The notes under the pieces were generated by a model, which did no database searches, was not told the DNA's origin, and saw nothing but the letters and a program-made list of their open reading frames with translations. Both the position numbers and the translations under genes were made by a program. This document shows positions 16,967 to 19,561 of a stretch of DNA of 64,000 nucleotides, piece by piece (positions within the stretch are counted from its first letter, which is position 1; each line of letters begins with the position of its first letter). The stretch comes from Cycloclasticus sp. 46_120_T64 (GTDB taxonomy: Bacteria; Pseudomonadota; Gammaproteobacteria; Methylococcales; Cycloclasticaceae). The DNA is taken from contig MAAM01000011.1 of NCBI GenBank assembly GCA_002162695.1, positions 1-64,000 on the forward strand. Direction: 5' to 3'.

Positions 16967-17953
16967 TTGTCAGTACTAGAAAACACATCATGGCCGCCGA
17001 CTTGTTCGGCGGCCTTATTACATCGACGCGCAGAGTTGTATCAAACCATTAGGGACTTCTTTGCGCAGCGGGCGGTGCTCGAAGTGGACACACCAATACT
17101 CTCTAACGCGGCCAGTTGTGACCTGAACCTCGATAGTTTTTCTACTCAGTTAACAAACGATGCGCTGAACCAACGGCTGTTGTACCTGCAAACATCGCCT
17201 GAATTTTCGATGAAACGTTTGATCGCCTCGGGGTCTGGCTGTATTTACCAAATTGCCAAGTCATTCCGTCAGGCTGAAAGTGGTCGCTTTCATAACCCAG
17301 AATTTACCTTGTTGGAATGGTACCGAATGGGCTTTAGCTTGGCGGATTTAATGCAGGAAATGTTAGAGCTGTTGAGCCTCTGCTTTAATCAAAACCTCGC
17401 GAGCATAACACTGACCTATGCAAGCCTGTTTAAGCAGCAGACGGGGATTAACCCGCATGAGACATCGCTTACTCAGTTGCTGGCGTATGCTGCCGAGCAG
17501 GGTAACCCCGAAGCGGCGCAGATTTGTGGCGACAGCCTCGCTAATGGCCTAGATTATGTTTTTAGTCAGTATATCCAGCCACGCCTCAAACCTGAGCTGC
17601 TGTATTTTGTTACCGATTACCCCGCGTGTATGGCGATGTTGGCGAAGCTTAGTGAGGATCAGCCCATAACGGCGAAGCGTTTTGAGGTGTATTTTAATAA
17701 TCTTGAACTGGCGAACGGCTATGAAGAGCTCAGTGATGCGCAGTTGCAACAGCAACGTTTTCAAGAAGAATTAGCCGAACGAGAAAAACAGGGTGCTAAC
17801 AAGGTGCCGATGGATAAAAACTTAGTGGCGGCTCTACAGCACGGCTTGCCTGATTGCGCGGGTGTTGCCTTAGGGCTGGATCGTTTGTTGATGGTAATCA
17901 GCGGTGTTTATTCGATTGATGAGGTCTTAAGCTTCCCGATTGAACGCGCTTAA
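16967..17953 (+). CDS. epmA: EF-P lysine ligase EpmA (GenX/PoxA)
   Basis: This 328-residue paralogue of the class II lysyl-tRNA synthetase catalytic core lacks the anticodon-binding domain. It activates (R)-beta-lysine and attaches it to Lys34 of EF-P. Class II motifs are visible: motif 1 around VLEVDTPILS, motif 2 in FRQAESGRFHNPEFTLLEWYR, and motif 3 in GVALGLDRLLMVISG near the C-terminus. The start is TTG at 16967, six bases after the efp stop; no in-frame ATG precedes the conserved helix ALLHRRAELYQTIRDFF. The hydroxylase gene epmC is not in the window. Confidence 0.95.
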   Translation: MSVLENTSWPPTCSAALLHRRAELYQTIRDFFAQRAVLEVDTPILSNAASCDLNLDSFSTQLTNDALNQRLLYLQTSPEFSMKRLIASGSGCIYQIAKSFRQAESGRFHNPEFTLLEWYRMGFSLADLMQEMLELLSLCFNQNLASITLTYASLFKQQTGINPHETSLTQLLAYAAEQGNPEAAQICGDSLANGLDYVFSQYIQPRLKPELLYFVTDYPACMAMLAKLSEDQPITAKRFEVYFNNLELANGYEELSDAQLQQQRFQEELAEREKQGANKVPMDKNLVAALQHGLPDCAGVALGLDRLLMVISGVYSIDEVLSFPIERA

Positions 17954-18091: not shown

Positions 18092-18706
18092 TCAGAAGCT
18101 CCTTAACTGCTGATCGTGATATTTTGCTAACGAGCTTAGGGCGCAGATAGTGCCGATTAGCGTTAATGCCATATCTGATTGGCTATCCCATATATAGCTT
18201 TGGGTACCAAGAAAAGCCTCGGCATCTTCGCCAGATGCCAGCGCGAGCCACCATTCTATGAGTTCGTAGAAAGCGCTAAAAACTAAGCAGAAACAGAGGA
18301 TTAAGAAGTTCATCCAGCGCCGTGTTTTGACGACGTGTTGGCGGAGGAAAATTTCTCTAGCGATGATTGCTAGCACAAAACCTTGGGCAAAGTGTCCGAG
18401 CTTGTCGTAGTTGTTTCTATCGGAACCTAGCCATTGTGCAATATCATCAAATAGCGGCACCTCGGCATAGGTGTCATGCCCGCCAACCATCAAAATAATG
18501 CAATGTATGAGAATTAAGGTGTGGCTCAATGTGCTCAAGGGGAACGAGCGGGAACTATAGGCTAGAGCCAGTAGCGCAATAATGGCGGGCAATACTTCTA
18601 ATAATCAGCTGAGTTGATCTTTTGGTTCGATAGCCGAGCAAATGAACATAGTAGAAAAAGCGCTTAGCCAAGCATAAAACCACGACGATTTTATGAGGCT
18701 AAGCAC
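18092..18706 (-). pseudogene. YjdF-like (DUF2238) membrane protein with in-frame TGA
   Basis: From 18592 to 18092 the product is clearly a DUF2238/YjdF inner-membrane protein (FPLSTLSHTLILIHCIILMVGG, then DTYAEVPLFDDIAQWLG, NYDKLGHFAQGFVLAIIAREI, SAFYELIEWW). The family's N-terminal part lies upstream in the same frame. From GTG 18706 it reads LIKSSWFYAWLSAF and CSAIEPKDQLS, then TGA at 18605-18607, then LLEVLPAIIAL. The TGA sits where relatives, as I remember the family, have tryptophan, one base from TGG. Without it the product would be 204 residues, the usual family size. Either the gene is broken by one nonsense change, TGA is read through, a shorter form starts at a non-ATG codon, or the base is an error. 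It follows psd by 6 bp. Family function unknown. Confidence 0.75.
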
Positions 18707-18712
18707 CTGGAT

Positions 18713-19561
18713 TTATTTTACTTTGCCGATAACTTGGCCTAGGCGAACGGTTTGCCCAGCGACGAGTTCTTCCGCCCAAGACATATTATCCTTGCCGTAT
18801 AACAAGACGATGGTCGACCCCATATTAAAACGCGCCATTTCGTCGTTTTTATTGAAGCTATGTTCATTCTCTTTATAGCTCCAGCTGCGGACTTGATTAT
18901 GACGGGGAGGGGTCACCTCGCCGTGCCAGATGGTTTCAATGCTGGACACAAAAATTGCGCCGACCATCACCATCGCCATTGGCCCTGCTGGGGTATCAAA
19001 GAAGGCGACCACGCGTTCATTTCTAGCGAATAATTCGTCGATATTATCGGCGGTTGTTGGGTTAACGCTAAATAAATCCCCGGGTACGTGCAGCATCTTT
19101 GTTAATGTTGCATCGTTAGGGAAGTGAATTCGGTGGTAGTCCTTGGGTGATAGATAAATAGTGGTGAAGTGACCGTCTTCAAAATTAGCGGTCATCGGGT
19201 CAGCACCTAACAGAGCCGATAAATTAAAGTACTTACCCTTGGCTTGGAAGAGCTGGCTATTACGAATATCGCCAATTTGACTAATGCAGCCATCAACGGG
19301 GCAGGAAATATTTGTCGGGTCCGACTCTAAGGTACGTGCGTGTCCGTTTAGGCTGCGGGTGAAGAAGGCGTTAAAACTTTCATACTTTCTTGGATTGGGT
19401 TCAGTCGCTTCAGCCATATTGACCTGAAAATACTGCACAAACCGGCTGATAATAAAGTTCTTAAACCACGGTTTTGTACAGCGCGCTATCCGGTGCATAG
19501 CCGCGGATAGTGCGTGTTGGGGCAAGATATGCTGGAGAATAATAAAGAGTTTATCTTTCAT
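18713..19561 (-). CDS. psd: Phosphatidylserine decarboxylase proenzyme
   Basis: This 282-residue inner-membrane-associated enzyme converts phosphatidylserine to phosphatidylethanolamine, the last step of PE synthesis. The self-cleavage and pyruvoyl-forming site is present as MGST in ARFNMGSTIVLLYG (LGST in E. coli), near residue 250. Other signatures are FNAFFTRSL, CPVDGCISQIG, YLSPKDYHRIHFP and VSSIETIWHGEVTPP. Length matches bacterial Psd. The gene follows the aminotransferase by 12 bp and precedes the yjdF-like gene by 6 bp, in one minus-strand run beginning at ppsA. Confidence 0.97.
   Translation of the reverse strand: MKDKLFIILQHILPQHALSAAMHRIARCTKPWFKNFIISRFVQYFQVNMAEATEPNPRKYESFNAFFTRSLNGHARTLESDPTNISCPVDGCISQIGDIRNSQLFQAKGKYFNLSALLGADPMTANFEDGHFTTIYLSPKDYHRIHFPNDATLTKMLHVPGDLFSVNPTTADNIDELFARNERVVAFFDTPAGPMAMVMVGAIFVSSIETIWHGEVTPPRHNQVRSWSYKENEHSFNKNDEMARFNMGSTIVLLYGKDNMSWAEELVAGQTVRLGQVIGKVK

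Follow-up and report, generated by a model that had tools for sequence, protein, structure and literature searches.

The closest described relatives of the gene considered here belong to the DUF2238, or YjdF, family, which partly covers the proposed 'Wok' family of the Lipocone superfamily, according to the accessible portion of PMC12419801. In that portion, Wok proteins are described as having an N-terminal extension of two transmembrane (2-TM) helices before a four-helix core, their predicted activity is on lipid head groups, and some members are proposed to be cardiolipin synthases. The excerpted text of PMC11109279 names DUF2238 as a neighbour of heliorhodopsin genes. In-frame stop codons in bacterial genes have been described in two further sources. 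The sections consulted of PMC7918605 report many such stops in genes with a dN/dS below 1 and argue that many of these genes are not pseudogenes, in an analysis that centred on stops common to two or more species. The available passages of PMC13092985 (2026) describe UGA readthrough by a CCA tRNA-Trp whose anticodon stem has 4 bp, and give A9C and G24A as further changes with this effect. The excerpts of the Cycloclasticus genome and pseudogene literature retrieved from PMC contain nothing on the DUF2238 gene described here.

This gene lies in a 64,000-nt stretch of DNA from Cycloclasticus sp. 46_120_T64 (contig MAAM01000011.1, positions 1 to 64,000; hereafter the window). Judged from sequence comparison, a gammaproteobacterium of the Cycloclasticus group carries here a chromosomal gene for a DUF2238/YjdF-like membrane protein that has very probably become a nonsense pseudogene. 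The gene looks like an ordinary, moderately decayed pseudogene and not like a case of a novel genetic code.

A single in-frame TGA interrupts a DUF2238 gene beside psd

The DUF2238 frame (18092..18706, minus strand) runs from a GTG start at 18706-18704 to a terminal TGA at 18094-18092, and its sole interruption is a premature TGA at 18607-18605 (18605..18607, minus strand), around which the translation reads ...CSAIEPKDQLS-stop-LLEVLPAIIAL... There are no frameshifts and there is no second stop. The piece upstream of the TGA (18608..18706, minus strand) comprises 33 codons including the GTG and matches the first of the predicted membrane helices, while the open frame downstream (18092..18592, minus strand) encodes 166 aa from a TTG, keeps the Pfam domain and lacks helix 1. 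The sequence downstream of the TGA matches DUF2238 (PF09997) at 3.7e-54, with 182.8 bits over a curated cut-off of 26.4 and coverage of profile positions 1-139 of 140, which makes the gene a member of the DUF2238/YjdF family, as had been predicted from the DNA alone. When a sister protein was used as a tblastn query, a single high-scoring segment pair (HSP) spanning residues 10-201 of 206 crossed the stop in the same frame; the continuity of the frame across the TGA is therefore not a matter of chance, and the original prediction of an in-frame TGA within a YjdF-like gene holds. Profile searches of the host genome (2.21 Mb, 15 contigs, given as 99.97% complete) returned only one PF09997 match, which speaks against a second copy.

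Both neighbours of the DUF2238 gene are uninterrupted. On one side lies psd, encoding phosphatidylserine decarboxylase (18713..19561, minus strand), a neighbour conserved in the genus whose stop is 6 nt ahead of the DUF2238 GTG. On the other side is a convergent epmA-like gene (16967..17953, plus strand), which we take to be epmA from its sequence and place. A scan for promoters and terminators around the DUF2238 gene found sites no more numerous than in shuffled sequences.

Alignment of the family shows that tryptophan occupies the stop column in 99 of 100 aligned homologue loci, which is every row that reaches that column, the hundredth row being the window's own locus, ending at the TGA. 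Removal of that locus and of three known duplicate loci left a set of 96 rows, all of which carry tryptophan at this column (96/96), in keeping with the predicted tryptophan position; the premature TGA is shared by none of them. In the intact orthologue from genome G008 the column corresponds to Trp35. Six long helices make up the AlphaFold2 model of this protein (pLDDT 91.1); the first spans residues 9-26 and the second 32-55, with Trp35 close to the beginning of the latter.

Conserved residues have changed on both sides of the stop

Besides the stop, ten residues that at least 90% of the 96 rows have in common are changed in the window copy, namely W24C, T34S, T52S, T59S, Y63H, Y79D, P113L, G171S, T176S and A183T (G008 numbering). 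W24C and T34S fall upstream of the TGA and the other eight downstream. Four of the ten are conservative T-to-S changes; P113 and G171 are invariant (96/96 rows each) and Y79 is present in 95/96. With a TGA at W35 and changes at both invariant residues, the window copy is a broken member of its family. The original prediction had described the C-terminal frame as undamaged, which is true of the reading frame and not of the residues that it encodes. Its leading idea, a nonsense mutation, is strengthened by the unanimous tryptophan column and by the decay at these further conserved positions.

Departures are not peculiar to the window copy: where conservation was judged with the congeners included, 11-16 of them were counted in a few rows from distant members of the family. 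In another count, conservation was judged from the 87 rows outside the genus only. Of the 77 columns then taken as conserved, the window copy has a missense departure at 11, and the nine congeners have 0-2 each (Fisher test against the pool of nine, 7.3e-6), and the difference persists at conservation thresholds of 85% (2.8e-4), 95% (3.0e-5) and 98% (8.5e-3). Departures at the remaining columns are similar, with 50 in the window copy versus 31-58 in the congeners, although these were counted from the nine-congener majority and so lean slightly against the window copy. The overall divergence of the window copy is not unusual: its DUF2238-to-psd mean distance ratio of 1.28 is the lowest of ten, the highest being 1.86. 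The copy from G003, the partner of the window genome on both trees, has a single departure although its divergence is greater (mean identity of 0.61, against 0.64 for the window copy).

Simulated neutral mutation of three uninterrupted sister genes required approximately 0.07 substitutions per nucleotide to reach ten conserved changes, at which point the genes had acquired a mean of 1.5-1.7 stops, and 28-33% of the 2000 runs made for each gene ended with exactly one. A single stop thus fits the amount of decay seen in the window copy.

A separate observation concerns the DUF2238 copy of G001 (locus L018), in which the frame is open and four conserved residues (consensus D-T-Q-S) are missing through an in-frame gap; this copy may also be on its way out.

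Only the DUF2238 gene is accepted as interrupted among the sister-matched genes of the window

For 42 open reading frames (ORFs) of the window there are homologues in two sister regions. We searched these genes by stop-tolerant tblastn, in which 23 HSPs held a stop; two of these are the DUF2238 gene and the other 21 were put aside by hand, unscripted, from their coordinates against the window gene list, being sister ORFs read antisense or out of frame, alignments overrunning gene ends, or weak paralogous matches. No other interruption was accepted among the 42; the check for TGA in other genes, as proposed in the original prediction, thus gave no further case in this set.

These results bear on the possibility that the TGA is an assembly or sequencing error and that the gene is free of stops in the organism. 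A single affected codon, which is also the sole accepted interruption among the 42 genes, would fit such an error. We nonetheless regard this explanation as improbable, since the ten further conserved changes, set against the few in the congeners, would need ten more errors within one gene, and since no other window gene looks broken, so that errors must be infrequent. Real decay with an added error at the TGA is nevertheless possible.

Two other features of the window were observed. At positions 1-234 a 15-bp tandem repeat of 15.6 copies lies in frame with an ORF ending at 697 and encodes a repeat rich in Ala, Glu and Arg. From approximately 42800 to 64000, only three ORFs have a counterpart in the two 100-kb sister stretches, at 21-31% identity, in contrast to the first 42 kb; this part may be a variable or acquired region.

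Selection persisted over most of the branch

A branch codon model covering 196 codons and ten genomes gave a dN/dS of 0.148 on the terminal branch leading to the window copy, versus a background of 0.0995, a rise that is not significant (2 delta lnL 0.62). A dN/dS of 1 was rejected for the whole terminal branch (2 delta lnL 6.3; lnL -4711.07 versus -4714.24). Taken alone, the branch dN/dS shows no relaxation for the window copy; as it is significantly below 1, selection acted over most of the branch, and a weakly functional product is possible. The absence of frameshifts is likewise in mild tension with a pseudogene. At the conserved columns constraint has nevertheless been lost beyond the stop, even though the dN/dS of the branch shows no significant rise, and the data suggest long selection followed by a relaxation of constraint late in the lineage. 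The loss had originally been called recent. This is apt in the wider sense of a late loss, for which the terminal-branch value speaks, and does not apply if it means a new hit on a gene still intact, given the ten other conserved changes and the excess of departures over the congeners.

We propose that selection on the DUF2238 gene relaxed in the later part of the lineage, and that missense changes would then have piled up with one nonsense change among them. Ribosomes would now end on a 33-residue peptide holding just the first membrane helix, and presumably no working DUF2238 protein is made.

An open downstream frame and a branch dN/dS below 1 could also be expected of a truncated but functional protein, translated by restart at the TTG at 18592-18590, a start-type codon 12 nt after the TGA, to give 166 aa that contain the Pfam domain and lack helix 1. 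Such a product is highly improbable in light of the eight conserved residues changed downstream, which include the invariant P113 and G171. Moreover, helix 1 (9-26) is separate from helix 2 (32-55) in the sister model, so its loss would be expected to disturb the topology of the rest. A similarly slight chance attaches to the idea that the TGA was fixed as a regulatory or structural device, either with restart at 18592 giving a protein that lacks helix 1 or with readthrough giving a trace of full-length product, and that the ten changes are adaptation to the altered form of the protein and not decay.

The gene is retained at the same place in some congeners and absent from others

Among the congeners, nine carry the gene in the same place between psd and epmA and five lack it. 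The order psd-DUF2238-epmA is thus found in ten genomes of the genus, comprising the window genome and nine others, with agxt and efp flanking the three genes on the outside where the contig reaches; the premature stop in the window copy stands against uninterrupted orthologues at the same place. G004, G006, G007, G010 and G011 (5/18 genus genomes) have no PF09997 match, and their psd-epmA gap, measured between protein matches, is 26-130 nt. The corresponding loci without DUF2238 between psd and epmA are L104, L105, L106, L110 and L112. In G002, G009 and G016 (3/18) neither psd nor DUF2238 was found, making these genomes uninformative on loss. When only losses are allowed on a tree of psd, epmA and agxt, the distribution implies five separate losses with FastTree or four with IQ-TREE, which joins G004 and G006 (support 42). 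G003 has a second PF09997 copy away from psd (contig C204, 4867-5277, 178.4 bits).

For annotators, the 166-aa DUF2238 frame at this locus is the remnant of a broken gene. Its inactivation by one stop adds to the five congeners without the gene at this place, and together these cases suggest that part of the Cycloclasticus group can do without this proposed lipid-head-group protein. The locus by itself matters little.

With psd as its neighbour, the gene has a suggestive link to lipids, yet psd was found beside DUF2238 in only 3 of 80 family loci, all three congeneric, for flanks of up to 3 kb that are in some cases cut by contig ends. As the adjacency was seen only in congeners, gene order gives no general clue to a functional link between DUF2238 and psd.

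TGA is an ordinary stop codon in this genome

Several features of the genome show that TGA works as an ordinary stop. Release factor RF2 is present (496.5 bits by profile search), and in its gene the RF2 frame is preceded by a short frame that starts with ATG and closes with CTT TGA C. The CTT-TGA-C site in the RF2 gene is an autoregulatory frameshift, which one survey reportedly covers. There are 39 tRNA matches, all read by ARAGORN, with one tRNA-Trp, of anticodon CCA, and no UCA anticodon among the 39. The tRNA-Trp has a 5-bp anticodon stem and carries A9 and G24 in our own numbering. TGA ends 8 of the 42 sister-matched ORFs, the DUF2238 frame included, and of the 14 gene-sister pairs with a TGA end, 13 have ends that lie no more than 15 residues apart. 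A tryptophan tally from the 42 ORFs was left unused, such ORFs being stop-free by construction.

A change of the genetic code was rejected on the strength of RF2 with its TGA frameshift signal, the CCA tRNA-Trp and the TGA-ended genes. A selenoprotein was rejected because no tRNA-Sec scored above the family cut-off: the best match reached 41.8 bits, below the gathering score of 47, and ARAGORN calls it a tRNA-Ser. The tRNA search also showed a Pro-Arg-His tRNA triplet present twice in tandem at L141 (G000 contig C3, 37164-37928).

Of all the explanations considered, the least probable is that UGA is read as tryptophan, genome-wide or by readthrough at this site: the stop does sit at a tryptophan column on a branch with dN/dS below 1, tolerated in-frame stops are frequent in bacteria according to the consulted sections of PMC7918605, and a CCA tRNA-Trp with a 4-bp stem reads UGA in the available passages of PMC13092985, but the tRNA-Trp here lacks every readthrough feature that those passages name, RF2 and the conserved TGA gene ends imply termination, TGA interrupts none of the other sister-matched genes, and other conserved residues have decayed too. 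The readthrough that the original prediction had offered beside mutation, like recoding, found no support.

Comparison with known systems

The locus resembles the Wok/DUF2238 proteins in its downstream sequence, and the six long helices modelled for the intact sister protein would fit a 2-TM extension followed by a four-helix core. A Foldseek search with this model gave no match at E <= 0.001, the best VIA-align Z score was 6.5, and no Lipocone protein was recognised among the 50 matches listed per fold search, an absence that is no counter-evidence; a sequence search of the PDB up to E 1 gave no match. Unlike the described family members, the window copy is stopped by a TGA at an invariant tryptophan and has ten other conserved residues changed.

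A UGA at a tryptophan position and a single in-frame stop are shared with the readthrough cases in the portions of PMC7918605 and PMC13092985 consulted. The 5-bp anticodon stem of the tRNA-Trp sets this genome apart from the 4-bp-stem case as described in the passages of PMC13092985, and, in contrast to the shared stops treated in the sections of PMC7918605, the window stop occurs in none of the 96 rows and is accompanied by decay of conserved residues.

The third comparison is with nonsense pseudogenes of free-living bacteria. The window copy differs from these in having as yet no frameshift or deletion, its frame being otherwise open. It is like them in its one stop, its relaxed conservation, the uninterrupted syntenic copies in relatives and the clean absence of the gene in others.
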